Source: Platerodrilus igneus
Lineage: Eukaryota > Arthropoda > Insecta > Coleoptera > Lycidae
Direction of reading: 5' to 3'
Assembly (NCBI GenBank): GCA_036346225.1
Contig: JARFIW010001365.1
Span: 120,001-184,000, forward strand
Length of the DNA stretch: 64,000 nucleotides
The notes below the pieces were generated by a model. That model was given only the letters and a program-made list of their open reading frames with translations. It did not search any database and was not told the origin of the DNA. A program made the translations under genes and the position numbers. Positions 49,301 through 64,000 of this stretch are shown here, in pieces (the first letter of the stretch is position 1; each line of letters begins with the position of its first letter).

Positions 49301-50384
49301 AAATAATAAATTTATCAGTAGTTTTAAATTATACCTTACGAGGCACGTAGTCTCTTAAATACAGAGTAATAATTTATTTCACCCGTATACGAAAGTAAGT
49401 TTTATAAAAATATGGCCCCATGATATTGTGTCCAGTCAGTCGCTCTGGTACAAACTACATGTTAAACTAAAGTAGACAGTTAGCAACTGCCCGCAAATTC
49501 TAGAGGGGGTTTATTTAACAAATTAATTTTCAATTTTACAAACAAATATTTTGTCATTTATACTTTACTATGTTTAATTTATATTGAAATTAACTTTATT
49601 TAAAACGTTATCATAATCTTGTATATTATTAAACAGTGCAAATTGGATAAAGAGATCGGCACTGACCGTAGTTGTCTTCATTTAACGTTTTCCTTATTTT
49701 ACAGTTCTGGCGAACTTTCAGTTCAACACAGTGTTATAAAGGTATCTCCAACTGGAAATGTACGCAAAGTTACTGAGGTAGTGCTGCATCCGAAGTTTGA
49801 CTCATACAGTCTTGATAACGATATCGCAGTGTTAAAGGTTGCCGTCTCAAGAGTAGACACTTACTAATTATAATTTTACAGGTGGAGTTTTTCAAATTCA
49901 CTCAAAATGTACAGACTGTTAATTTGCCTCAGCAAGGAGCTTATCCACCTTCAGGATACCCTGCAGTTTTAGCCGGTTGGGGTCTTGGCAATGTAAGACA
50001 TCATTGCAAAATTACTTTAATTTACGAAAACTTTCAGGCTGGAGAAACTAAATTCGAAGATCTCTATAAAGTGCATGTAATGATATATACGGATGCCGAG
50101 TGTAAAGCTATTTACGGTGATAAAATTAATCTACTATTGCATCTGTGTGCCGGCGTTCCTGAAGGCGGTAAAGGTGAATGTAAGGTAAGTAGCTTACGAA
50201 GAAGTAATCGGAAATATACGTATGAGATTTTTAGGGCGATGATGGCGGTCCGCTAATAGGTGTTGATGGTACACAGCATGGTATTGTTTCTTGGCTATTT
50301 CCCTTCTGTGGTTCTAAAGGATTCCCAGGCGTATATACACGAATTACTAACTATGTCGACTGGATCAATCTAAAAATACAGTAA
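19282..50384 (+). CDS. Secreted trypsin-fold serine protease homologue (catalytic Ser replaced)
   Basis: Seven exons (19282-19330, 19386-19456, 34458-34549, 49705-49837, 49882-49992, 50038-50184, 50235-50384) join with GT-AG introns into 753 nt, 250 residues plus stop. Residues 1-15 are a signal peptide. R25/IVGG is the activation cleavage site. H66 lies in LTAAHC and D110 in DNDIAVL. The Ser position (204) is Asp, in GECKGDDGGPL. D203, which pairs with the new N-terminus, is kept. Six cysteines form the three canonical invertebrate pairs (51-67, 174-189, 200-226). S1-pocket position 189 is Gly, as in chymotrypsin- or elastase-like members. Without Ser195 it should not hydrolyse peptides. It is probably a secreted gut or haemolymph pseudo-protease, but its role is unknown. 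Confidence 0.88.
19386..19456 (+). CDS. Exon 2: propeptide and IVGG activation site
   Basis: It encodes residues 17-40, a short propeptide PVLPHDHER followed by IVGGTKAVLGELPHV. It ends in phase 0 at GTAAGT. The next exon lies 15,001 nt away. Confidence 0.9.
19457..23513. other. Intron 2, first part: no recognised element
   Basis: AT-rich unique DNA. I found no coding sequence, inverted ends or LTR in it. The GC-richer patch near 21205-21300 (ccgggctcgggcgcatagtaagg) is unassigned. Confidence 0.5.
23514..24180 (+). repeat. Left arm of foldback element 2
   Basis: Four to five units of about 145 bp. Each carries two or three copies of GTTTGCCCA(C/A) and alternates between a form with caatt.tagaag and a form with cacatagaatt, so the arm has a dimeric pattern. 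Its inverse lies at 26271-26825. Confidence 0.75.
24181..26195 (+). repeat. 142-bp satellite array (about 14 copies)
   Basis: The word tgcgttaatgttgtttg recurs at 24586, 24729, 24870, 25013, 25156, 25299, 25446, 25587, 25729, 25869, 26011 and 26153, giving spacings of 140-147 and mostly 142-143 bp. Each unit contains three spaced copies of a TTTGCCCA-like word, a caaaggatagttataaat block and a cta-gtatgagcaattctgaagc block. Units are highly alike, so the array is younger than the arms. Confidence 0.88.
26271..26825 (-). repeat. Right arm of foldback element 2
   Basis: The reverse complement of this segment aligns with the left arm, including the subterminal blocks caattcgtgagaagaatttg and catccaaaaaattc. 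Short open frames in it, in the same register as those in the left arm, are repeats and not genes. Confidence 0.75.
26838..31078. other. Intron 2, middle part: no recognised element
   Basis: AT-rich DNA with several open frames of 60-110 codons on both strands (for example 27049-27318 and 29556-29876). None shows a known motif. A GC-richer stretch at about 28240-28480 containing cgcatgcgcaag is unassigned. Confidence 0.45.
31079..33120 (-). pseudogene. LINE remnant: RT plus RNase H
   Basis: A 5'-truncated LINE. In minus orientation it starts near 33120 with ERRASQEDWAIAKKV, passes TFKSYKSPGSDRIIP, MEKLLNRHVRESILATSQLH, HSTESAIRHLVFRVEKTLAN and AFLDIEEAFDDTSF, and the catalytic YADDLAVLV region near 32430 (one base off frame). 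It ends with RNase H at 31562-31122: FQTEIHAILQS, IVYDSQAALKA and WVLSHQGLNGNKIADELA, which keep the acidic residues. Many frameshifts. It resembles the RNase H-bearing Jockey/LOA-type families of insects and differs from the element at 4.7-9.9 kb. Confidence 0.82.
33118..33175 (-). repeat. Extra copy of the LINE 3' terminus
   Basis: The sequence atagcatagacctgaatagt and what follows repeats 31133-31170, the coding end of RNase H, almost exactly. It is fused to the upstream break of the larger fragment, so two pieces of the same family were joined here. Confidence 0.7.
33176..34457. other. Intron 2, last part: no recognised element
   Basis: AT-rich unique sequence up to the acceptor of exon 3 (polypyrimidine tract ttatattttcag). 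Nothing else is recognised. Confidence 0.45.
34458..34549 (+). CDS. Exon 3: catalytic His
   Basis: It encodes residues 41-70 and part of 71. It contains VSLRVADAHICGAS and VLTAAHC with the catalytic His66 and the Cys51-Cys67 pair. The acceptor is ttttcag and the donor GTAAGT, phase 2. It sits between two 15-kb introns. Confidence 0.9.
34550..35460. other. Intron 3, first part: no recognised element
   Basis: Begins with the exon 3 donor GTAAGT. The stretch 35080-35400 is richer in GC and could be a decayed LTR, but no pair or primer site was found. Confidence 0.4.
35461..35484 (+). repeat. piggyBac-like terminal end with TTAA
   Basis: TTAA is followed by CCCATTCGCTGCCAACCC, which matches the usual start of PGBD-type piggyBac elements in insects. 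I could not find the opposite end. The transposase remnant at 37.2-38.4 kb could belong to the same element. Confidence 0.5.
35740..36870 (-). pseudogene. LINE 5' end with ORF1 start
   Basis: The minus frame 36379-36080 encodes a 99-residue N-terminal ORF1 part ending in AKKLSEAQRRKLRKAKK. This basic KLSxAQRRKL motif occurs in ORF1 of RNase H-bearing insect LINEs. Upstream (36380-36640, GC-rich) is the probable 5' UTR. The rest of ORF1 and ORF2 is missing, and an AT-rich region begins at about 35800. Confidence 0.6.
37183..38370 (-). pseudogene. PGBD-type piggyBac transposase remnant
   Basis: Read on the minus strand in several frames: an N-terminal part from 38370, LVDLYKLFWTNAVYNYI (about 37960), SSNRYREILKNLHFVNATEL (about 37730, the RxRFxxIxxxLHF motif), DKVIPFVDHLN, and FNLFIHNFFSGPPL with GIIRQNIFSKC (37350-37270). 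The last two correspond to the second-Asp region D-N-FFTS and the following GTIRxNR motif, with the Asp replaced by His-Asn. The first-Asp block (DEMM-like) is not recognisable. It is strongly decayed and nested in intron 3, next to a LINE fragment. Confidence 0.7.
38400..40230. other. Intron 3 sequence, no recognised element
   Basis: AT-rich, with a GC-richer patch at 39050-39250 (minus frame of 72 codons with CCCGPASDSTSTSATS) that I cannot assign. Nothing else is visible. Confidence 0.4.
40231..40470. repeat. Degenerate GT/CG-rich alternating tract
   Basis: A stretch of about 240 bp rich in alternating purine-pyrimidine words such as gcgcgtgta, tgtgtttgtgagtgtgcatg and gcgagcgcgcacgtgcttac. 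It is a decayed (TG/CG)n-type repeat in AT-rich surroundings and is prone to Z-DNA. Confidence 0.55.
40471..44819. other. Intron 3 sequence, no recognised element
   Basis: Mostly unique AT-rich DNA. The patch 43085-43985 has higher GC and an AATAAA on the minus strand near 43130, which could be an old LTR. There is no second copy in the window to confirm it. Confidence 0.4.
44824..47384 (-). mobile_element. piggyBac transposon with both ends
   Basis: The left end TTAA|CACGTAAACCGCCGC and the right end GGTGGCCGTTAACGTG|TGAA form an inverted pair (CACGTWAAC.GCC). The left flank is the piggyBac target TTAA (44820-44823) and the right flank TGAA (47385-47388), one substitution away. Subterminal words of the type GCCGCYTGTA recur near 44878, 44930, 47130 and 47177, probable transposase-binding repeats. 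A broken transposase occupies the middle on the minus strand. Confidence 0.82.
45146..46874 (-). pseudogene. piggyBac transposase, broken
   Basis: It starts at Met 46874 with an acidic N-terminus. Then come the domain entry WKPVTLPEMKKFFGVV, AMPRNRFQSLLRFWHFSNNE and IAIDESMVPFRGR with the first catalytic Asp (about 46120). In-frame stops follow at 46012 and about 45765, and frameshifts near 45700 and 45620. VVVNVNFYTSNPLAKQLL (about 45890) has Val where the second catalytic Asp is expected. DLSDQLATYSSPIRKSVRWY (about 45590) precedes a C-terminal Cys-rich finger: RCLYCYKKLA, TTYCDT and PFICIQC (45270-45160). Loss of the Asp and several breaks make it inactive. Confidence 0.87.
47385..49704. 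other. Intron 3, last part
   Basis: AT-rich and mostly featureless up to the exon 4 acceptor. A diverged duplication lies at 47978-48088. The patch 48810-49090 gives a possible coding trace on the minus strand, but I do not recognise the family. Confidence 0.45.
47978..48088 (+). repeat. Diverged direct repeat with small hairpins
   Basis: The word tagcagttgttagtgggcga (47980) returns 71 bp later as tagcaattgttaatgggtga. Each is followed by a short inverted pair, GGGCGAGGCCC or ATGGGTGAAGCCCAT, and then an A-rich run. Confidence 0.55.
49705..49837 (+). CDS. Exon 4: catalytic Asp
   Basis: It encodes residues 71-115 and holds VTEVVLHPKFDSYSLDNDIA with Asp110. The acceptor is ttattttacag. The donor is GTTGCC, weaker than the others, in phase 0. 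A cryptic donor two codons later (GTCTCA) would add two residues. Confidence 0.82.
49882..49992 (+). CDS. Exon 5: middle of the protease fold
   Basis: It encodes residues 116-152, including FTQNVQTVNLP and the conserved AVLAGWGLGN. The preceding intron is 44 nt and contains a near-perfect branch site (TTACTAAT). The following one is 45 nt. Confidence 0.87.
50038..50184 (+). CDS. Exon 6: second barrel, specificity region
   Basis: It encodes residues 153-201, with DAECKAIYG (Cys174), HLCAGVPEGG (Cys189) and ECK (Cys200). It ends directly before the active-site GD pair, in phase 0 at GTAAGT. Confidence 0.9.
50235..50384 (+). CDS. Exon 7: mutated active-site Ser and C-terminus
   Basis: It encodes residues 202-250. 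It starts GDDGGPLIGVDGTQHGIVSW, with Asp204 in place of the catalytic Ser, and ends CGSKGFPGVYTRITNYVDWI followed by NLKIQ and stop. A 50-nt intron precedes it (acceptor tttttag). Confidence 0.9.
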   Translation, partial: GDDGGPLIGVDGTQHGIVSWLFPFCGSKGFPGVYTRITNYVDWINLKIQ

Positions 50385-50897: not shown

Positions 50898-52265
50898 ATG
50901 AGTCACCATTCAGAAGTCACATACTGCGCCACATGCAAGCATCCTGAAGAAGGTGACATGGTCGAATGTGACGACTGCAATGAGTTGTTCCACTTTCACT
51001 GTGCCAGTGTTTCCACGGGAATGGAAGGAATAGCCTGCAGTTGCTGTAACTGCAAAAACAAAGAAAATCTAAATATCGAAAGCCAGCGGCAAGAAGACAT
51101 GGCAATAGTAAAAAATGAATAGCGTAACCGTACCGTGAGTGTTGAGCAAAATCGTAAAGTTGAATTTACTAATAATAAGTCTAGTTTGTATGATGCTGAA
51201 TTACAACTTAAGTACTTAGAAGAAGAGAGACAAGCTAATCTGCGCAACTTGCAAAAGAGGTACGAACTATTGTAAAGGCAAAATAATCCGTGCAAAGACA
51301 ACTCGCTAGGGCGTTCGAATGCAATAGACTTAAGTCGAAAGACTACATTGTACCGGGCTGTTTTTGCAATAGTATTACGGATAACTATTGTCAGGCACAA
51401 AACTTGCTAAACTGTGGGTCTTCGCCTCTGTCTACACCTGCGGCACCTCTGCAAGCACAACACATTCATGCTCGACAAGGGATTTCCAAGGACTTGCCGT
51501 TATTGAGTGGAAAACCAGACAAATGGCCAGTCTTTATAAGTAGCTATGAAAACTCAACTAGACCTTGCGGCTTTAGCAACGATGAAAACCTACTTCGTCA
51601 AAGCCTTGGAATACGTCAGTAGTCAGTTATTAACTCCCGCCTTGGTTCATGACATAATTTCTACGCTAAGAATGGTATTTGGAAAGCCCGAATATAAAAT
51701 AAATAGCTTGCCAGAAAAAATTTGCGCCTCTAGTGGTGTTAACGTGAATAAACTTAAAACTTTGATCTCCTTTGCGGTGGACGTTAAAAATTTAACAGCA
51801 ACTATACAAGCCGCAAGACTTGATTGGCATTTAAACAATCCTTACTTGTCCAAGGGTTGATCAGCAAACTATCAGCCCAAATGCATCTAGAATGGGCCAT
51901 GACCACAGGACGTAATGTCGAATTTAACCTCTTGGCTTTTAGCCAATGGCTTTACAATTTAGCTTGCGCGACAATTTCTGTCACAGCAGCTCCTCCAAGT
52001 GCAAGTCAGGACGAAAAGCGTAGAACACATCCTATTGCCTTTCACAAGGGACAAAACACACTGAAAACCAAAGTAAAAAAAGGTTGGCACCAAGCAGAAA
52101 AACACAATTGTGTGCACCGAAAAATGAGACGTTTTCGAGACAATGTCATACAATGACGGATGAGATGTTGTCCACAAGAAACGGTTGTGTCGTTCCTGTT
52201 TAAAGTTTCACAATCCACGATTTTGCAAGAAACGACTCTAGTGCGGAATAGACAGTTGTACTGCA
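50898..52265 (+). pseudogene. BEL gag with N-terminal PHD-like finger
   Basis: It begins at Met 50898. The first 60 residues hold CATC, CDDC, FHFHC and CSCCNC, a C4HC3 arrangement like a PHD finger. A coiled-coil-like segment (AELQLKYLEEERQANLRNL, about 51190) follows. Then comes the Pao gag core: LPLLSGKPDKWPVFISSYEN, TRPCGFSNDENLLR, ISTLRMVFGKPEYKI and NLTATIQAARLDWHLNNPYL. The nucleocapsid-like finger is CRSCLKFHNPRFC and KHHRLLHK (about 52190-52280). Frame changes occur near 51120, 51280, 51600 and 51850. Confidence 0.82.
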
Positions 52266-52289
52266 AAGCATCACCGACTATTACATAAA

Positions 52290-52895
52290 ATGGTAGTAAT
52301 GCGCGACACTAACCTACAGCCAAATACAGTGGCAATACATGTACAAAAAACTTCAAACGTACTGTACCGTATCGTCCCTATTGTAATTTATAGTCAAAAA
52401 GCTTCTATAGCCATTTATGTTCTCCTTGATGATGATTCCGGGCCAACCATAATAGAAAAAGATGTGATAAAGCAATTGAATTTAAAAAGTAAAGTATCTG
52501 ATTTATGCTTGCGATGGACCGATGGTTCTATTCGTGTCAAAAATAATTCAGAACTTGTAAATCTTAAAGTGTGTAGCAAATGCACCCTTAACCAAACCTT
52601 CACATTGCGAGACGTACACACCGTCAGTAAGCTAGACTTGCCTACTCAAACGCTGTTCATAAAAGAGCTTGAGGTGAAATACCAACATGTACAAGGTCTA
52701 CCGGTAGAGTCGTATCAAGATGTTGTACCACAAATGATTATCGGTCTGAATAATAAGCACGTGGCTATGCCAATAAAGTTTAGAGAAGGCAAAACTACTG
52801 AACCATCTGCTATTAAAACACCTTTGGGATGGACAATTTATGGAGTGCTAGAAAGGGAAGACGTTTGTGAGTCCGTAAACCCGAGCTTTCACTGA
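52290..52895 (+). pseudogene. BEL aspartic protease region
   Basis: An open frame of 201 codons. IYVLLDDDSGPTIIEKDVI carries the catalytic Asp in a LLDxxS context typical of the A17 peptidases of Pao elements. KTPLGWTIYGVL near the end is the conserved TxLGWxxxG motif that precedes the RT in this family. The frame ends at a stop 25 nt before the next segment. Confidence 0.82.
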
Positions 52896-53095
52896 CACAT
52901 CTGCGAAAGCGCTTGTGACATGGCATTACATAAACTTGTTAACGAAAGCGTGAAGCTTGGCAATATGGGCTCCAAAGACCTAGCACGAGATCATACCAAC
53001 TCCGATAAATTGAAAATGCTTGAAGCGTATGTAAATCGAACGGGAAACCACTTTACTTCTAAACTTCTGTGGCGTGCAGACAACATAACCATAGA

Positions 53096-53953
53096 ATATA
53101 CCTTACGGAATAGAAGGGAATCATCCATAATAAAAATTATAACCTTAATACTGACTTGCCACCTATGAGACGAGGCTGGTACTAACAAAAAACGATTTCT
53201 GTAATTGTGCTGTTTACACTACTAACGTGTCAATTTATACAAAAGAAAAGACACCGGACAAGCAATGTTCGCAGGCGGTCACCCATCCAAGTACTGACCG
53301 AGCCCAACGTTGCTTAACCTCGGTGATCGGACGAGAAGCAACACTGAGGGGTAAGCCGCCACGGTTACGGAAACTTTTGTTATATCACAAAATTTGAATC
53401 ATTGTACAAAGTTTAGTTGTACGTGATATTTTTCATACTTGGGATTGTTATGTACATTTCCACTAACGTAAATTTTATAAATATATTTTGATTTGATTTG
53501 GTGCTTTTCAACGTGGTATGGTCGTTGTCTATATTAAAAATCGCGTTCCGGGTATGTAGAGTGCATATGCGAATGCACCTAGCAAATATTCGAACTCCGC
53601 GTTTCTTATATGAAAATACAATTTGTATTTAATGTCAGTATTCTATATACATAGGATAGTATAAATACTATCAGTGCTTCGCATAAGCTAACCTAACTAA
53701 AAGGACTTCCCTAAATTAACAATAATGAATTAAAAACCTATTTACCTTAAGTGTTAATTATTTGAATTGCTATTGAAAATTCAAGGTTCTTGAACATCCG
53801 TAAAATTAAGTTTTGTGGTTAGGTTATGTTTAATTATTGTTTCCGTAGCTTTTAATTTTTATTGTCGACTTCTTTGCGCGTGCTGCCATCTTACAGGCGA
53901 GGAAAGAAAGCATTATATGAATCAAATATGGGCTATTCAGTTTCCGCCCCTTG
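53096..53953. mobile_element. 858-bp insertion in BEL pol with 8-bp duplication
   Basis: AACATAAC stands on both sides (53088-53095 and 53954-53961). Both copies encode the same Asn-Ile-Thr of the interrupted RT frame, so the insertion boundaries are fixed by the protein. An 8-bp duplication fits hAT-type transposons. The right end in reverse, CAAGGGGCGGAAAC, looks like a hAT end, but the left end CATAGAATATACC matches it poorly. No transposase is present. A 5S-rRNA-like segment lies inside. Confidence 0.75.
53262..53368 (-). repeat. 5S rRNA-derived sequence (pseudogene or SINE3 head)
   Basis: The minus strand reads TTCTCGTCCGATCACCGAGG, TTAAGCAACGTTGGGC and TACTTGGATGGGTGACCGCC, the core of arthropod 5S rRNA including the internal promoter boxes A and C. 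The first ~35 nt and the last ~15 nt differ from 5S and no longer pair as helix I, so it is not a functional 5S gene. A 5S-headed SINE is possible; a captured pseudogene is the alternative. Confidence 0.75.
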
Positions 53954-54700
53954 AACATAACTTTACCCGATAATTATATGGCTATGCGCCGATTGATATG
54001 CTTCCAAAAAAAGTTAAATCAGGATGCGGGGCTCAAGGTTTTAGTAAGTACTCATATAGACAGCATGAAACAAAAGCAATATGTACGAAAGCTTACTCCA
54101 TCCGAAATAAAGCAAGAGTACAAGAGGAAATGGTATTTACCTATAACTTTAGTCCGTAATCCTAATAAGCCGAGTATAATAAGATTAGTGTGGGACGCAG
54201 GGACATCACACCATGGTGCCTCTCTTAATAAATGTCTGAACTAGGCCCAGATTTGCTACGCCCGCTTCTGCAAGTTTTATTCAACTTTCGTATCGGTAGA
54301 GTTAGAATTTGTGGAGATATGCGAGATGTTTCATAGAATTCACATTGATGTAAAGGATCAGCAGTGCCAAAGATTCTTGTAGCGCAACTGCGAGAAGAAT
54401 TAGCCACCAGATGTTTATGTCTTGCAACGTCATTATATTGACGACTGGCTCGACAGCGTTGATACTGCAAGTGAAGCTATTGAATTAGCCAAAAATGTTA
54501 TTGAAGTTCATAAACGTAGAAATTTTCATATTCGTAACTGGCTTTCAAATTCTCAAAAAGTAGTAACTGCGCTCGGTTCTCCAGAAGTAAAAAAAGACTT
54601 TTGCCACGCAGGGCAATCAATCGATCATGTGGTTCAGCCAAAAAAAATACTTGGTCTGTGGTGGCAAACAAACAACGATACGTTTACGTTTAGTTTAAAG

Positions 54701-55450
54701 TAGACAAAAGCTAGCACTAAAATTCTACATGAAGGAAAGGCATCAACCAAACGAGAAGTTTTAAGACTGTTAATGTCAATCTTTGATCATCTCGGCCTTT
54801 TATCATGCTATACGATTCAACTCAAAACCCTGCTACAATGCGTCTGGCGTGCTGGAATCAAATGGGACGAACCAATCTCTAGTGAATTGATACCTAGTTG
54901 GAAGCTATGGCTTTCACACTTAGAGCAAGTGTCTCAAATTCACATTCCAAAATGCTACAATAACGACGTGAGACCACAAGACTGCATAATTGGGTTGCAC
55001 GTGTTTTTGGATGCGCTGTCGCATACTTCAAATTCGTTTACGAAAAGAAAACTCATGTTTCATTGATAACTTCTAAGGCTAAGGTAACGCTATTAAGCCC
55101 AATATCTATACCCCGCATGGAACTTCTCGCTGCAGTACTGGGTTCGCGCTTTGCAAGAACATGAGCTTGTAAGCAGCGATACATATTACTGGTCAGACTA
55201 GCAAACTGTCTTAGTATGGATTCGTTCCGACCCCCGAAAGTACACACAATTTGTGATGTATCGAATTGCTGAAATACAAACAAATGCAGACGTAATGCGG
55301 TGGCACTATCTACCATCAAGACTAAATGTTGCTGACCTGGCTACGAAGTGGCATAATAAAAATGTATTTGAGCCGTCTAGCGTTTGGCATTTAGGTCCGG
55401 AGTTCTTGAGACTACAAACTGAGCAATGATTCCTGCAAAGTTTTAAATCA
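54701..55450 (+). pseudogene. BEL RNase H region
   Basis: TKREVLRLLMSIFDHLGLLS (about 54745) is the Pao signature following the RT. ELIPSWKLWLSHL and IPKCYNNDVRP follow, then GLHVFLDALSH with the first acidic residue of the RNase H fold. IPRMELLAAVLGSRFA (about 55110) carries the Glu. Later parts are in shifted frames. Confidence 0.78.
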
Positions 55451-55479
55451 ACGAATAATTACATTTTACAACCACAACC

Positions 55480-56640
55480 AGAGATGTATGAACAAATCGT
55501 GGCGGTCCAGACAAAATGTTTTGCATTTATTTATACTTTCCGCTTTTCAAAATGGGGATGCTTGGTGAGATGCGTAGCTTACGTCAAACGGTTTATAAGA
55601 ATGATACGCAGAACAAAGCAAAACGATTTAGAAGTTAGTACGAGCGTAGTAGGAGTAGAATCGAACCATCTAACAAGGAAAGAGCTAACACAGAGCCTAG
55701 AATTCCTTTACAAGCTTGCACAAACGTACTCGTTTTCACTCGAAATGCCGAATTTGCAACGAGACCCCAGATGTATTCTAGATAAGGGGAGTACGCTTAG
55801 GAAACTCTCTTTTTTTGTTGACAACCTGGGAATACTGTGACAGCTTGGACGGTTAGATAATGCTCCAATCGCAAGTGAAACAAAACATCCAATCATGCTA
55901 CTAAAAGATCATAGGATCAATTATGTGCTGATTGACTGGTATCATCGTAAGTACCATTGTTCATCACGAAACCGTTGTTAACGAATATCTTAAGTTTGCG
56001 ACATATATTTCGAACTGTCAGGTTTGTAAAAATCGTATAAGCCCAATCCTCCAGAAATGGGCCAATTACCCGAAGCACGTTTGGCACCGTACGCTCGCGC
56101 GTTCACATATGTTGGTGTAGATTTTTTTGGACCATTTATAGTAATAATTGGAAGACGCTCAGGAAAGAGATACGGCGTCTTATTTACGTGGCTGACATGT
56201 CGTGCAGTACACATGGAAGTAGCCTATTCGCTTCCATGAACTCGTGTGCAATGACTATTAGAAATCTTATCAGCATGAAAGGAATGCCATCACAGATGTT
56301 TAGCGATAACGGCAGCCAAAAACGAACTAAAAGAAGCCTACAAGCGACTGGACTTCAACGCCTTGCAAGAACAATTTACTACAGACAAAACTAAGTGGAA
56401 CTTCATTCCACCTGTTATTTCACACATGGAAGGTTATTGGGAACGGATGATACGTTCTGTTAAAACCGTGCTGTACCAGATTATAACACCCGAAACGAAA
56501 TTATCAGATGAAAAGTTGCATAACCTCTTCCTAGAAGTTGAATGTATTCTGAAGCCGGTCGCTTACTTACTTATCGCTAGTCACCGCGTAACAAGAGTCA
56601 CTTACGCCAAATCACTTTCTGTTGGGCAGTTCCTCTTGGG
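55480..56640 (+). pseudogene. BEL integrase
   Basis: After a decayed zinc-binding part (LKDHRINYVLIDWYH, about 55900), the core shows ARLAPYARAFTYVGVDFFGP with the first Asp (about 56120), SGKRYGVLFTWLTCRAVHME, FSDNGSQ with the second Asp (about 56310), and MEGYWERMIRSVKTVLYQII with the catalytic Glu in the family's normal position (about 56440). Three frames are used. Confidence 0.84.
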
Positions 56641-56734
56641 TTAAATTGCCCGGCAAATTTGATGCAACCGATCAATATATTAGGAGTTCTTGGAGACACT
56701 CTTAGTTTGTAGCCGATAAATTTTAGAAAGGTGG

Positions 56735-57001
56735 GTGACTGAAGTGCTACTGACTCTTACAAGAAGAATTAAATGGACCGATCAAGTCAAACCGATAGAA
56801 GTGGGTGATATAGTAATAGTAATTGATCCAAACTTTCCTCGTTGCACTTGGCCTAAAGGAATCGTAATCCAAACCTTTGCTGGTAAGGATCGCGAGGTTA
56901 GGAGCGTCCGTATTCGAACAACCAAAAGAGAGTACCATCGTCTGGCAACCAAGATTATAGTCCTTGATGTGAAGGGTGTGATTGTTTCGAACAACGCATA
57001 G
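56735..57001 (+). pseudogene. BEL pol C-terminal tail (DUF5641-like)
   Basis: RRIKWTDQVKPIEVGDIVIV, DPNFPRCTWPKG and GKDREVRSVRIRTTKREY are the usual C-terminal beta-barrel signatures after a Pao integrase. The frame ends 54 nt before the 3' LTR. Confidence 0.82.
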
Positions 57002-57372: not shown

Positions 57373-57470
57373 GTTTGTAGAAAAGTCTTTATTGTAAACG
57401 CCCATTTAGATATTTTGAACGTTGAAGGTTAATAAGACATGCAGTGGTTCGCATAGTAGATTAAACCTAT

Positions 57471-57561
57471 TGTGGCGGGCTACTACTACCGCGTTTCCCC
57501 AATTTAAAACAAGTAATAACAATAGTCTTTATTACTCACTGTTCACAAGTCTAATTAACAG

Positions 57562-57617
<56 letters not shown>

Positions 57618-57737
57618 ATGAATTGAAATAGATGATTCATTCTCTTGTATGTGCTCGAACATCCTAAATTGCTGGAGAATATACAGTGCTTACGGCGCTT
57701 GTGTGTTCAACGGGTTGCCTAATAGTAGCTCGTAACA
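57471..57737 (-). repeat. Gypsy 3' LTR
   Basis: On the minus strand it starts TGTTACGAGC directly after the purine run and ends CCGCCACA. It contains AATAAA (about 57530, minus) and an (AT)n microsatellite. No partner LTR exists because the 5' end of the element is missing. The inner boundary is firm, the outer one less so. Confidence 0.65.
57561..57613. repeat. (AT)n microsatellite
   Basis: About 50 bp of nearly pure AT dinucleotides inside the Gypsy LTR. Confidence 0.95.
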
Positions 57738-57750
57738 CTGCCCCCTCTTT
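57738..57750 (-). promoter_or_regulatory. Polypurine tract of the Gypsy element
   Basis: AAAGAGGGGGCAG on the minus strand directly precedes the LTR start TGTTACGAGC, the expected plus-strand primer for reverse transcription. Confidence 0.65.
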
Positions 57751-57804
57751 AAAACCGTTACGTCTCGTAACTGTAAAAACATATTGATGCCAATTCGATG
57801 ACTG

Positions 57805-57861
57805 ATGACGGTATCGACAGCTATCTCCTCTGGTGCATCCACCACGTCGTTGGAAATAACA
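57805..57861 (-). pseudogene. CCCH zinc finger after the macro domain
   Basis: CYFQRRGGCTRGDSCRYRH matches C-X7-C-X5-C-X3-H, the RNA-binding CCCH finger, in the same frame as the last third of the macro domain. The frame continues about 45 codons and runs into the LTR, stopping at 57664. The zinc ligands are all present. A single such finger commonly binds RNA, but that role here is inference. Confidence 0.72.
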
Positions 57862-57914
57862 GTCAACACTCTTTTCTTGGTCTTGGGAGGCAGCCGGTTG
57901 ATAACAACAAACAA

Positions 57915-58325
57915 GGACTTGGACGTTGGCTCTTTGGAAAACTACTTCTAGCATATTTCGGACTATCCTCCAATCTAAGCGATCCAGTCCACAGCCTAGT
58001 TGGGCACCGCTAGTCCCGTTACTCCATTTTCCATCATCTGAGCCTTAAGATTCAGCAAAGCCTCTTATAAATGTCCATAACTAGGTTTCTGCCATGAAGA
58101 ATTTTTGGTGACCAGATAGAAAACATAACGATTATTATCCTGAAAACCAAAGCTTTTTCTACAGTTGGCTGTTGTTGTACTAATTCATCAATACATCCAA
58201 ACTTTTTCTTGAAAACAATAGCTATCCCTCTTGACATTGGCAGGTCCTGAGCTACTCAATGTGCAAGGGAATCTCTTCTGGTGCTTTAAGCAGATTTTGC
58301 TGTTTTTCAACAACAACGCCAAATC
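57915..58325 (-). pseudogene. TARG1/OARD1-like macro domain fused to Gypsy pol
   Basis: Read in order on the minus strand: QNLLKAPEE (58320), DSLAH-stop-VAQDLPMSRG (58273), IAIVFKKKFGCIDELVQQQ, RYVFYLVTKNSSWQKPSYGH (about 58120) with the Lys that is the nucleophile in TARG1, NGVTGLAVP, and LGCGLDRLDWRIVRNMLEVV (57999) with the catalytic Asp, then VQVLVCCYQP. Human TARG1/OARD1, which removes ADP-ribose from Glu/Asp and hydrolyses O-acetyl-ADP-ribose, has the same order SLAHC, GIAVLFKKKFG, ITKKRASHKPTY, GCGLDRLQW. Here two stops and two frameshifts break it. Location after the integrase suggests it was the end of the pol polyprotein. Confidence 0.8.
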
Positions 58326-58930
58326 TCGCCTTAGCGGAACCACCATACGCCGCCATGAAACTCTTAAAATCTACATTTGGCTCTTGATTAATAACTCTTT
58401 GCACACCATTCTCAGTACTCAAGCCTCCCTGGTTATTGCCAGCATAAGATGTTAAACGGTCAAAGTGTACCACTTTTAGTTTACCACGGGGAGATCTTCT
58501 GATCCGGTTCACTACATCATTAATTGTTTTCAACACTTCGTACGGGCATTTCCATTGTCTTTGTAGTTTTGACGACAATCCTCGTTTTCTTTGTGGATTA
58601 TTCAACCGCATAAAATCTCCAGGGTGGTAACCACTTTCTTGTGCTCTCGTGTCATATTGTGATTTCATTCAATCGCTTGCTGCCTGGATATTCTTTCGGA
58701 CGTTTTCGTAAATGCTTATTGATCTTTCACAAAGCTTACTAACGTAATCTTCACCTGCAATCTCTTCTCCAGGTTTGAATCAAAACTGAAGATCACATGG
58801 TAGCCGCAATTTACGTCCTAACATCACGCAAGCGGGAGAGTATCTTGTGCTGTCATGTACCGAAGATCGGTACGCTAGTAAGAACAAATGTAAATATTGG
58901 TCCCAGTCTCGTTGATGTTCAGAGACAACT
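58252..58930 (-). pseudogene. Gypsy integrase C-terminal region
   Basis: STRYSPACVMLGRKLRLPCD (about 58840) ends the core. The frame 58668-58252 starts MKSQYDTRAQESGYHPGDF and includes QRQWKCPYEVLKTINDVV and GKLKVVHFDRLTSYAG, the GPY/F-type C-terminal module. A linker of about 55 residues leads straight into the macro domain. Confidence 0.82.
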
Positions 58931-58934
58931 TTAG

Positions 58935-59448
58935 CTACGTGGTTCTAGTCTTCCTGATTCCAAGATGCTTGCAGACCTTCTGAAACAACGCTGATTCGAA
59001 GTTCCGACCTCGATCGGAGTGTAATTCTAACGGAACTCCAAAGCGACAAAACAACTCCCTCACTAGTACATCTGCAACTGTCTTGGCTTCTTGGTTAGGC
59101 ATAGCATACGCTTTCGGCCATTTGATAAAATAATCCATTTCAACCAAGATGTATTTATTACCGTTCCTCTGATTCAGGAAACGGACCAGCTGTATCAATG
59201 ACCACCCTCTCAAAAGGATTCCCCACGTTATACTGTCTCATCGGGGCTTTACGTTTTGTAACCGGGCCATTTCCAGAGGCACACAACTCACAATTCCGGC
59301 ACCACTCCTTCACATGTTCTTTGCAGTTCATCCAGTAGAATCTATCTCTCACTCTTTCGAGAGTTCTTTTCACGCCAAAATGCCCTAGGGAAATACCATC
59401 GTGCAAGTGCTGCAACACTTCCGGCACTCTGCTTCTCGGCACTATCAC
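58935..59448 (-). pseudogene. Gypsy integrase zinc finger and core
   Basis: The HHCC finger is HDGISLGHFGVKRTLERVRD followed by WCRNCELC. The core has ERVVIDTAGPFPES with the first Asp (59170, frame change after it) and LELHSDRGRNFESALF with the second. After HLGIRKTRTT the sequence jumps to VVSEHQRDWDQYLHLFLLAYR (about 58930-58870). The roughly 30 residues between, which hold the catalytic Glu, are missing. Confidence 0.83.
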
Positions 59449-59454
59449 TTGAAG

Positions 59455-60447
59455 TCATCTCTCAGTGCCATCTTCACATTCCAGGCGTCGTTTCAAGATT
59501 CTATTTTTAATCATCAAGGAGTCCCACTGTGCCCAGTATGCCTTCGGGCTCCTACTTGAAATACTAATTTTTTCCCAAGCTGGTCGTTGTCCTCTACTTT
59601 TGCACTCAATAATACATCCCAATTCGGCGTCATTCTCCTGGTCTTCTCGTATTCTTTCGGGTTCCCAAGTATCATCGGTTACCGTCATTCTATGGATGAT
59701 ACTTATTTTCTCTTCCATCTTGGAGCAATGATTGCAGTCCACCGGGCAAGGTCTCCTTGATAGAGCGTCCGCATTCCGATGACTAATTCCTACACGATGT
59801 TCTGTGTCAAAGTTATAGTTTTGCAACCGCTCTATACACCTCGCCACTTGCCCTACAGGATTTCGAAACTCTAGTAACCATTTTAGTGCAGTATGGTCTG
59901 TTCTCAACAGGAATTTACGGCCGTATAAGTACTTATAAAAGTGCTCTACGGATTTGACGACGGCCAACAGCTCCTTTCTTGTCACACAATCGTTCCTTTC
60001 TGGCCGCGACAAGACTTTGCTGAAATTCTCAATAACTTTTTCTTGTTCGTCATGCACTTGAGATAGAACACTTCTTATAGCTGTGTTACTGGCATCGGTA
60101 TCCAACACAAATTTCCCCTCCATCTGTGGATAACTCAAAATTGGTGCTGTAACTAGTAGCCGTTTCAGCTGTTCAAATGCACTGTGGTAGTCGTCATTCC
60201 AATCATATTTTTGTCCATTTTCGGTTAATTTCGGTAACGGTTTGGCAATGTTCGTAAACCCAAGTATAAAACGTCGGTAATATGTGCACAATCCTAAAAA
60301 ACTGCGTAGTTGGTGTATATCTGCTGGTGTAGGCCACTCTTGTACCGTTTTTATTTTGTCAGGGTCAGCGCTTATTCCGACCTCTGAAACGACATGTCCT
60401 AGGTATTTCCCCTCTTTTCCAAATAGGTGACACTTCTTGGGGCTCAA
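59455..60447 (-). pseudogene. Gypsy RT thumb and RNase H
   Basis: An open frame of 330 codons, the longest in the window. PKKCHLFGKEGKYLGHVVSE and LRSFLGLCTYYRRFILGF are the connection region. KFVLDTDASNTAIRSVLSQ holds the first Asp of RNase H, VTRKELLAVVKSVEHF the Glu, LLRTDHTALKWLLEF the next Asp, and GISHRNADALSRRPC closes the domain. It appears intact. Confidence 0.9.
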
Positions 60448-60462
60448 TGTAAGGTTTGCCCT

Positions 60463-60861
60463 TCAAAATCTTCGGAATAACTCCTCTAGGTTCTTAAGGT
60501 GTTCTTCAAAAGACCGGCCAAACACTATCCCGTTGTCTAGGTACACCAGACATGTTTTCCAGGACAGTCCACGCAGCATCGACTCCATCAAACGTTCAAA
60601 AGTAGCAGGGGTATTGCATAATCCAAATGGCCATAATCCAGTTCCAGTTGTAAACGCAGTTTTTCCTTTATCCTTTGGCTCCAAGCCTACCTGCGAGTAT
60701 CCGCTTTTCAAGTCCAAGGTCGAAAACCATTTAGATCCGTATAGAGTATCCAAGGTCTCCTCAATTCTGGGCAAAGAATAGCTGTCTTTCTTTGTCACAT
60801 TGTTTAACCGCCGGTAGTCTACACCAAACCCTGTCGACCCATCCTTTTTCTTGACAAGCAC
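60463..60861 (-). pseudogene. Gypsy reverse transcriptase
   Basis: [38 protein letters not shown] with the first catalytic Asp, [16 protein letters not shown] and [18 protein letters not shown]. The box normally reading Y-x-D-D is YLDN here, a single-base change of the second catalytic Asp that should abolish polymerase activity. Confidence 0.88.
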
Positions 60862-61450
60862 TACTGGGGATGCTCATGGACTATTCGAGGGTTCAATCAC
60901 CCCTTGTCCTGATAATTTGTTCGGCTTCTTTACGTTTTTCCAAAGGAAGCCACCCGGGGTGTTGTCTTATCGGTTGCGCATCTCTAGTACTGATCTTATG
61001 TTGCACAACATTCGTTTTTCCTTTCTCACTATCATCCAGTGCAAACACACCTCGATATCGTCCGTCCAGTTGTTTTACCTTGCCCAGTTGGTCGCCGTTT
61101 AATCTTTGAAACAAAAGTATCAACAGATCCAGCAATTTCTGTAAGCAACCGTTGACTGGTTTATCTTTCGTGTCGTCCACACAACGTTTAATATGGCATA
61201 CTGGAATGCAACTTCCCACAATCATGTCTTTCTTCAGGGTCACCGTGTGCGGATTAATGTTCAGCACCCATATTGGCATCATATTTCAAAACTTTACCAG
61301 TGTTTTCCAATTAGTAATCCCTCCTGATCCATTCCCGATTCAGTTGCTTCCATGATGCATATTTGTCCTTCCCGAAGCGTAACATCCGGGCGTCCCATTA
61401 CTATCATTTCCGCCTTCTCAGGTATTTTCATATCACAAATCAACCTTGGT
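60862..61450 (-). pseudogene. Gypsy pol segment between protease and RT
   Basis: Around 61440-61300 the minus strand gives MICDMKIPEKAEMIVMGRP and EGLLIGK, then the frame 61282-60893 gives MPIWVLNINPHTVTLKKDM and, near its end, HPGWLPLEKRKEAEQII. These match the segment in Ty3/Gypsy pol that links the aspartic protease to the RT. The protease itself is missing. Confidence 0.75.
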
Positions 61451-62480
61451 TTACGGGGCGCCAAATTCTACCTCTGCCAAGGGCGCTAGGATCCCTTTAT
61501 ACAGCCCTGATAATAATATAATAAAACATCCGAGCTGAATTTTAACGCCGCAGCTACATTGGTATTTCACACCAGTCGTCGGATTGCAGGTGCGTGAAGT
61601 TAGACGCAACTTTGTAAGCACTGATATTCTTATAGGTGCCAAAAGTAGGGCTTCGTTTGTGCTCTTTGGTGCTTCATATGTCACCGACGTACGGCTACTA
61701 ATAAAAAAATTGCCACTTAAATTTTTGCGGCTAACTTCACAACTGGTCAAGGTTTGTTACAAATTCAAAATTTTGTTTCAGCCGAAAGTTAGTGCTTCGT
61801 TAGTGCTTCATATTTCAGCGACGAGCGACTTCTAATAAAAAAATTAGGGACATTTATATTTTTAATTCTAGCCGCGGTTTGTTTCAACTTCAGAAACGTT
61901 TGCAGCCGAAAGTTGGTGCTTCGTTAGTGTTCTTCAGTGCTTCATATTTCAGCGGCGTGTGATTTCTAATAAAAAAAGGTATGACCTCTTAAACTTTTAG
62001 CTCTATCCGCGGTTTGTTTAGATTTTAAAAAACTTTTGCAGTTAAGAGTTAGTGCTTCGTTAGTGCTCTTTAGTGCTTTATTTTTTAGTGGTGTACGACT
62101 TCTAGTAAAAAAGTTATGGCCACCTATGTTTTTAATTCTAATCGTGGTTCGTTTCAATTTCAAAAAACTCTTGCAATCGAGAGTTAGTGCTTTGTTAGTG
62201 CTCTTTAGTGATTCATATTTCAGTGGTATACGGCGGCAAACGAAAAAGTTACGACCACTTATATTTTTACAGCTGACCGCGGTTTGTTTCAGTTTCAACA
62301 TTTTGTACCGCCGTAAGATAGCGTGTCATTAATGCTCTTTAGTGTTTCATATCTCAGTGGCGTACGACTACTAATAAAACAGCTGTGCCATTTGCAGCTG
62401 GCTGCAATTTGTCTCAACTACAAAGATTTTTTACAGCCGAAAGATAGTGTTGTGTACTTTCGAGTGGTCTGTATTTCAAT
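61451..62480 (+). repeat. ~135-bp satellite array (six to seven copies)
   Basis: The block gttagtgcttcgttagtgct recurs near 61647, 61790, 61913, 62048, 62183, 62318 and 62443, mostly 135 bp apart. Each unit also has a cgacttctaataaaaaa block and a gcggtttgtttcaatttcaa block. The word (T)TAGTGCTT is repeated two or three times per unit. The first 100 bp (from the Gypsy junction) is GC-richer and could be the outer end of an element. Confidence 0.82.
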
Positions 62481-63080
62481 GGCATACACATATACATACT
62501 AGAGAAATTGGAAAATTTTGAAGATTCGAATTAATTTAATTAATTTTACACGAAAACATTGCCCCGAAACTTCAGACAAATGCTATTTAACGAGTTAGAA
62601 TTGGAATAGAATATCGTGATTGTATTTATCTAGATGCTCTTGTACAGATGCGACTTAATAGAAAATTCTCAAAGTTATATCAAGACTTCCTAAACATATA
62701 AAAGGCAAAAAATTCCATATTATTAATAATTTGTTTTAATCATTTGAATAAAGTTTTCGAAAAAAATTGATTGCTATTCGTAAAAAATATTATTTATACA
62801 ATAATATTACGAACTTGCGAAATAAGAAAGTTTATAAACCAGTCGCAATTTTAGGGTTAATCTGAACGTTAGCTGCTCATGTAATACATTATCTGAAATT
62901 TAAAATACACGTATCATCTTTCTGAAATAAATTCTTACTTGCAACTTAATAACCTGTGATGCTAGAAATAAGTTATATTCGAAATTAAGCTCTGGAAATA
63001 AGTATAATTAAACTGGCGTTGGATAGAATGAATAGGAATATAAGGAATATACAACTTCAAAGTTCAGAGCCAGAAGTTGG
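62481..63080. other. AT-rich spacer between two satellites
   Basis: Unique AT-rich sequence with no coding trace. Confidence 0.5.
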
Positions 63081-63890
63081 CAAAAATTTTTTGTTACAGA
63101 AACACTAACAGTCATATGTAGCAGAATATGCAGTGCTTCATTGTGTCTTAACCCCAAGGCACCGCACTTTCGTTTTCTGAACTATTCGACATTTTTGTTG
63201 TAGCAAGCAATAAAGACAATAAATGTAGCACAATCTTTAGTGCTTCGATGGTGTTTCATTGTGCTTCAAACCGCAAAGCAGCCGCATTTCTGTTTTCGGA
63301 TATAGTTGACTCCAAATGTTAGATCCGAAAATGTGCTACGATTTTTTTGTTGTAGAAGCACTAACGGCAACATGTAGCATATTCTGTAGTGCTTCGTTAG
63401 TTTTTTATTGTGCTTGAAATCCCAAAGCAACCGCACCTTTGGTTTATGATATATTTAACACCAAAGGTTAGATCCGAAAATGGGCTACAATTTTTTGTTG
63501 TAGATGCACGAACAACAGTATGTAGCACCCTCTTTAGCACTTTGTTCATGCTTTATAGTGCTTCAAACCGCAAAGCTGCCGCACTTAAAGATTCTGAAAT
63601 ATTCGACTTCAAAAGTCAGATCTGAAAAATAGGCTACAACTTTTTTGTTGTAGACGCGCTAACGACGATATCTAGCATAATCTTTAATACTGCGTTAGTA
63701 TTTTATTGTGGTTCGAACCGCAAAGCAACCTTACTTACGGTTTCGGAAATATTCGTCTCCAAAGGTCAAAACCGAAAATGGGCTACTTTTTTTTGTTGTA
63801 AAAGCACTAACGACATTATGTAGCATAATCTTTAGTGCTTCGTTAGTGTTTTATAATGCTTTAAACCACAAAGCAACCACACGTATTGTT
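63081..63890 (+). repeat. ~147-bp satellite array (five to six copies)
   Basis: The block ctacaattttttgttgtag recurs near 63335, 63484, 63630 and 63779 (spacing 146-149). Each unit has aaccgcaaagcaaccgcac, a block with gaaatattcgactccaaaggt and tagatccgaaaatgggcta, a caacaaaa-type block, and agtgcttcgttagtgtttta. It shares the word TAGTGCTTCGTTAGTG with the 135-bp satellite. Confidence 0.82.
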
Positions 63891-64000
63891 GCGACATATT
63901 GTCGTTAGTGCTTCTACAACAAAAAATTGTTTGCCCATTTTCGGATCTGGTTTTTTAAGTCGAATGTTTGCGAAACCGGAAGTGCGGCTACTTTGCGGTT
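63891..64000 (-). repeat. Inverted start of the 147-bp satellite
   Basis: From about 63895 the monomer appears in reverse orientation (tcgttagtgcttctacaaca to ctactttgcggtt at the window end). The array therefore turns on itself, probably the right arm of a third foldback structure that continues beyond the window. Confidence 0.7.

Follow-up and report, generated by a model that had tools for sequence, protein, structure and literature searches.

Macro domains are known from RNA viruses. According to PMC7050489, human TARG1 (OARD1) is a partner of PARP1 and cleaves ADP-ribose esters on acidic residues, O-acetyl-ADP-ribose and the phosphate esters found at the ends of nucleic acids. The same source names Lys84 and residue 125 as the catalytic pair; its text gives Glu125, and the OARD1 sequence P0157 has Asp at this residue. 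Thymidine-linked ADP-ribose is also removed by TARG1 in a Lys84-dependent manner, according to an excerpt of PMC8501950. Ty3/Gypsy elements, for their part, can acquire a domain behind the integrase, as chromoviruses show (PMC3605345, excerpt). Here we describe a family of Ty3/Gypsy long terminal repeat (LTR) retrotransposons in the lycid beetle Platerodrilus igneus, whose polyprotein ends in a TARG1-type macro domain followed by a CCCH zinc finger. The starting point was a broken copy in a stretch of 64,000 nucleotides (contig JARFIW010001365.1, positions 120,001 to 184,000), hereafter the window.

A first-pass annotation of the window had read the blocks of a TARG1-type macro domain, in order, on the minus strand, and had placed them behind an integrase C-terminus and ahead of a polypurine tract. 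Three-frame translation and matches to OARD1 bear this out. The GIA...FKKKFG block comes first, then a YYLVTK-type block containing the nucleophilic Lys, then GCGLD, which holds the catalytic Asp; both catalytic residues are thus present, and the order H2C2, integrase core, integrase C-terminus, macro domain, polypurine tract and LTR holds. Since its reading frame is disrupted, this copy has the blocks scattered across three frames. While the domain itself stood, its proposed boundaries (57915..58325) did not: the frame-broken macro domain spans ~57907..58298 on the minus strand, and its last part alone matches OARD1. The annotation had also overlooked a CCCH zinc finger (C-x7-C-x5-C-x3-H) just behind the macro domain, at 57805..57873 on the minus strand. 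Without any editing, the open piece 57664-58044 matches both human OARD1 (4j5q, E 5e-4) and the CCCH protein CPSF4 (E 3.8e-6). The finger scores 21.1 bits in the window piece against a PF00642 cut-off of 20.5 bits, and 17-18 bits, below the cut-off, in copies L018, L012 and L049; CCCH families other than PF00642 all score below their own cut-offs.

Since the window copy is truncated and broken, the macro segment could be a host OARD1 fragment or pseudogene lying by chance beside a truncated element. The other copies in the host genome (2.71 Gb) argue against this. When the 667-bp segment was used as a query, all 40 places scored, out of 4428 first-look candidates, matched at 90-100% identity. 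Twenty of these places, the window's own included, were taken with their flanks: in 20/20 the LTR starts directly behind the macro-zinc finger segment, and ten have another LTR match 4.9-6.3 kb upstream (two of the ten over only 155 and 264 bp). In 4 of the 20 copies (L010, L012, L018 and L025) integrase C-terminus and macro domain share a single open frame, which in the last three extends through the zinc finger. Likewise, a protein query matched macro domain and zinc finger at 139 of 139 scored places (the best 139 of 12985 candidates), and in 128 of these best-scoring places the match appears stop-free by eye.

Copy L049 shows the complete arrangement. Its uninterrupted frame of 1653 codons runs from protease to zinc finger and, read in three pieces, contains a zinc knuckle, protease, reverse transcriptase, RNase H, H2C2, integrase core, p58, Macro (E 9.5e-4; 19.5 bits, below the cut-off of 22) and CCCH (17.5 bits, below the cut-off of 20.5). 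The two LTRs of L049 are identical at 583 of 584 bases, and the copy has a polypurine tract and a 4-bp target-site duplication, ATAC. In two more copies the LTR pairs differ at 4/517 and 5/520 bases; in L050 no LTR pair was found within the stretch fetched. These near-identical and little-differing pairs point to recent movement of the family. By pol order, LTRs, polypurine tract and target-site duplication the element is a multi-copy Ty3/Gypsy LTR retrotransposon. A chromodomain-type element was considered and rejected, as no Pfam chromodomain matched at E 0.01 in the L049 pieces. A chance host fragment, with LTRs adjacent and paired, a macro domain sharing the L049 frame with protease, reverse transcriptase and integrase, and the same order in other species, is rejected as practically untenable.

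Copies lacking the segment would have spoken for an unrelated fragment. To choose copies independently of the macro domain, we searched with RNase H only, which listed 39 other loci. Eight of them were co-listed with a macro match at the right distance and strand, and two of two further loci that were read carry the domain; together these counts cover 10 of the 39 loci.

The match to the macro fold, which the first-pass annotation had proposed to check, is strong by sequence and by predicted structure. The macro segment of the unbroken copy L018 aligns with human OARD1 over 131 residues without gaps (E 4.9e-36), whereas the next family among the PDB matches reaches 5.2e-6. Pfam Macro was found in all four copies scanned (E 2.4e-5 to 1.8e-4); three of them clear the curated cut-off of 22 bits, which the fourth narrowly misses. 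The predicted structure of a relative superposes on TARG1 at 1.1 Å, so that a TARG1-type macro fold is predicted. Of the catalytic pair Lys84 / Asp125, the Lys is present in 127/127 element sequences and the Asp in 126/127. The domain is predicted to be an ADP-ribosylhydrolase.

Relatives of the element occur in other beetles. With the macro-CCCH region as a protein query, 196 proteins matched among 443 candidates, and 120 of them were listed. Our element set (n=122) consists of 119 listed proteins and three from another search, assigned by similarity. The macro domain is present in 122/122, the CCCH motif stands just behind it in 120/122 (the exceptions are P0029 and P0123), and RGQC, which encodes the polypurine tract, is found in 97/122. 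Named sources are Harmonia axyridis, Molorchus minor, Aromia moschata, Gonioctena quinquepunctata and Aquatica leii, all Coleoptera, from four families. Proteins of four beetle species show the order integrase-macro-CCCH; the short Aquatica protein lacks a CCCH motif, and the Gonioctena model is disrupted in its integrase part. In P0028, reverse transcriptase, RNase H, integrase, macro domain and CCCH lie within one protein. Because the same domain sits in the same place in the proteins of other species, the macro segment is not a chance association. The macro-CCCH architecture is present both in recent copies with an unbroken frame and in relatives from other beetles. A precomputed macro label is found on 0 of the 119 listed element-type proteins, and some element proteins carry source names such as 'cleavage and polyadenylation specificity factor' or 'C3H1-type domain-containing protein', a point that matters for annotation.

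The listed protein excluded from the element set, P0024 of the sawfly Neodiprion pinetum (1073 aa), has two OARD1-type macro domains and no pol label, and is a host-type relative. P0002 is filed under the powdery mildew Erysiphe pulchra and groups with the ladybird Harmonia (99/87); it is probably insect DNA in a fungal assembly. Among viral contigs (IMG/VR), the pol query P0028 was without match. In the same collection 165 stretches encode TARG1-like macro domains, 80 of them (L065-L144) retained at 29-43% identity; presumably these are DarG-like phage proteins.

We examined the origin of the domain with a tree of 50 macro domains, 21 of them from elements. All 21 lie on one side of one branch (99/99; 100% of 200 bootstrap trees). 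This clade groups with fly TARG1-type proteins and with other proteins of OARD1 type (88/84, not starred) within a larger group (95/86), and the five element sequences of the host genome are sister to the other 16. Because the element domains form one clade beside host OARD1s, a single capture, probably from an arthropod host OARD1 gene, is likely; it is likely rather than proven because the outgroup rooting is not clean and some host rows are long.

The host OARD1 gene of the same genome was not found among the 150 places scored, out of 9864 first-look candidates, with a host-type query; these 150 places score alike and, by overall appearance rather than row by row, look like element copies. 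A degenerate host-loop pattern occurs at 8 places in the genome, 6 of them near-identical. One of these, L061 (G000:C1220:1172620-1173060), is a second, distinct OARD1-like sequence; it has the host-type loop MGAGIA, is multi-copy, contains a stop and lies beside another repeat. Similar sequence recurs at 14 other places, which match parts of its first ~304 bp at 84-92%, with 40 scored out of 157 candidates. L062 (G000:C1527:665600-666050), from the other pair of host-loop places, is a decayed relative of L061.

Selection was assessed in 39 copies (of 44 loci, five identical ones dropped). Variants found in a single copy should for the most part reflect decay after insertion, and variants in at least four copies the era of replication; stops were counted as non-synonymous, and variants in two or three copies were omitted (in the macro domain 14 synonymous, 17 non-synonymous and 3 stops). 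In the macro domain, single variants were 38 synonymous to 129 non-synonymous and shared variants 25 to 13 (p 8.6e-7). Moving the frame by one or two positions raised p to 0.31 and 0.39. The integrase C-terminus behaved likewise (single 60/238, shared 35/16, p 1.8e-11; shifted frames 0.73 and 0.58). Since shared variants skew to synonymous in the true frame only, the macro domain was under purifying selection during replication, like the integrase.

What could such a domain do for the element? The account we put first, and to which we give an even chance, is that in this Ty3/Gypsy family the macro domain at the polyprotein end, a predicted ADP-ribosylhydrolase accompanied by the CCCH finger, erases host marks during integration. 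Fused to the integrase, the module would be carried into the particle and on into the integration complex, where it would encounter ADP-ribose marks at the ends of the cDNA and at the target site. There it could strip ADP-ribose that host PARP1-type enzymes had attached to DNA ends or to acidic residues in integrase, Gag or chromatin, and the removal of these marks would keep integration or later expression unblocked. The CCCH finger would probably bind nucleic acid and so position the module, the step of the account that we hold least firmly. Links between ADP-ribosylation and mobile elements have been described. In parp-1 mutant Drosophila eight mobile elements were significantly changed, five up and three down; a further ten, of which nine belong to the gypsy superfamily, rose with weaker significance, and the effect may be indirect (PMC7712786, in part). 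In mammals, L1 is silenced via mono-ADP-ribosylation of KAP1 by SIRT6 (PMC4695847, excerpt).

Several observations weigh against this account. The ADP-ribose loop reads MSRG in 116/122 element proteins (MSRGI in 115, MSRGV in 1) and in 0/132 host sequences, which mostly have MGAG or MGKG. The element thus lacks the host-type loop, which is itself not established as essential, and substrate or activity may therefore have changed. The zinc-finger part of the predicted structure is of low confidence, and selection on the zinc finger and tail is not significant (single 15/54, shared 6/6, p 0.069). Macro identity between L049 and eight relatives is 48-62% in 8/8, lower than that of the integrase (69-75% in seven, 35% in the disrupted model P0026). 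And three of the eight Drosophila elements fell without PARP-1, and the authors of that study allow for an indirect effect.

The altered loop would suit a macro domain that serves as a reader, tethering the integration complex to ADP-ribosylated chromatin in the manner of a chromodomain, with catalysis secondary or lost. The macro domain stands directly behind the integrase C-terminus, the site of the chromovirus chromodomain (PMC3605345, excerpt), and macro domains serve as readers as well as erasers (PMC7050489, in part). However, each catalytic residue is kept in at least 126 of the 127 sequences and the nearest relative, OARD1/TARG1, is the hydrolase of its class, and we consider targeting of this kind unlikely. 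The loop, together with the zinc-finger selection result, would also fit a neutral passenger or structural spacer whose ADP-ribose function is gone. This is disfavoured by the purifying selection seen on the macro domain, in no frame but the true one, and by the retention of the catalytic pair across species, which makes a passenger very improbable.

The lower identity of the macro domain indicates that it evolves faster than the integrase; either a looser constraint or a pressure to change could lie behind this. Such a rate, as counter-defence genes can have, would be in keeping with an eraser that acts in the cytoplasm or particle on Gag or element RNA, against host restriction and not at integration. 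The ends of nucleic acids are among the sites from which TARG1-type enzymes cleave ADP-ribose, RNA ADP-ribosylation has been suggested to mark transposon RNA (PMC7050489, in part), and the CCCH finger resembles the RNA-binding fingers of CPSF4. Against it stands the fusion at the integrase end of pol, and no ADP-ribosylation-based restriction of retroelements in insects was seen in our literature searches, which were not aimed at it. We hold a cytoplasmic role to be rather unlikely, and return to erasure at integration as the preferred account.

The window copy, a 5'-truncated copy with broken frames identified by its Pfam pol domains and by similarity to other copies, occupies 57471..61442 on the minus strand, with 88-91% DNA identity to other copies across 57464-61442. 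Its 5' part is gone, the truncation lying at 61442. Pfam matches in separate frames, all on the minus strand, mark the reverse transcriptase part at 60463..60873 (PF00078, E 2.3e-18), the RNase H part of pol at 59455..60462 (PF17919, E 2e-28; PF17917, E 1.1e-26), the H2C2 zinc-binding part of the integrase at 59158..59454 (PF17921, E 1.4e-20) and the integrase core part at 58935..59237 (PF00665, E 1.1e-12). The p58-type C-terminal domain of the integrase follows at 58453..58548 (minus strand; PF22938, E 5.2e-10, residues 41-72 of the open piece 58252-58668). Behind macro domain and zinc finger lies the polypurine tract (57738..57750, minus strand), recognised by its sequence, which in the pol frame of relatives reads KRGQC or RRGQC. 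Only the 3' LTR remains (57471..57737, minus strand; TG...CA); it begins with TGTTACGA at 57737, ends at 57471, matches both ends of ~540-bp LTRs elsewhere, has lost its middle and contains a TA microsatellite.

Tandem arrays with units of ~135 bp and ~148 bp (61641-62382; 63046-63942) adjoin the truncated 5' end. On the plus strand, 51287-57001 holds a row of broken frames whose motifs resemble those of a BEL/Pao-type polyprotein, ending beside the Gypsy 3' LTR; two pieces of it were scanned and gave no Pfam support. The stretch 18219-18471 matches the 5' (gag-side) part of copy L023 at 80% and is probably a fragment of a related element, and 49819-50256 is a trypsin-like fragment (PF00089, E 9.6e-5).

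Together the data show that a transposable element keeps a macro domain in its integrase polyprotein under selection. That an LTR retrotransposon lineage found in several beetle families, with thousands of first-look candidate places, uses a captured hydrolase and a CCCH finger to let its integration machine erase PARP marks is a proposal we rate slightly short of even. If true, it would be a transposon-borne counter to ADP-ribosylation, implying a restriction of insect retroelements by ADP-ribosylation; an active domain would point to host ADP-ribosylation as a barrier to their integration or expression. The macro-CCCH part can be tested by itself, apart from the element. No report of a macro domain in Ty3/Gypsy pol was found among the papers listed in our searches, which covered few subscription journals; PMC11642819, as far as its excerpt goes, is a paper on an aphid RNA virus.

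Compared with known systems, the element domain is closest to TARG1/OARD1/C6orf130, the ALC1-like class hydrolase (42% identity), and differs from it in lying within a retroelement polyprotein ahead of a CCCH finger, in having MSRG in place of MGAG or MGKG, and in that its activity is predicted. The macro domains of alphaviruses, coronaviruses and rubella virus share only 10-16% identity with it, and the bacterial DarG antitoxin macrodomain, at ~20%, is likewise clearly more distant than TARG1. Fish epsilon-like endogenous retroviruses are also retroelements with a macro domain, but by the description in part of PMC4977317 (citing Basta et al. 2009) their macro proteins lie in additional open reading frames, whereas in the beetle element the macro domain is in the pol frame. 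Chromoviruses resemble the element in carrying an extra chromatin- or mark-related domain behind the integrase of a Ty3/Gypsy pol (PMC3605345, excerpt); in the beetle element this module is instead macro domain plus CCCH finger, and L049 has no chromodomain match.
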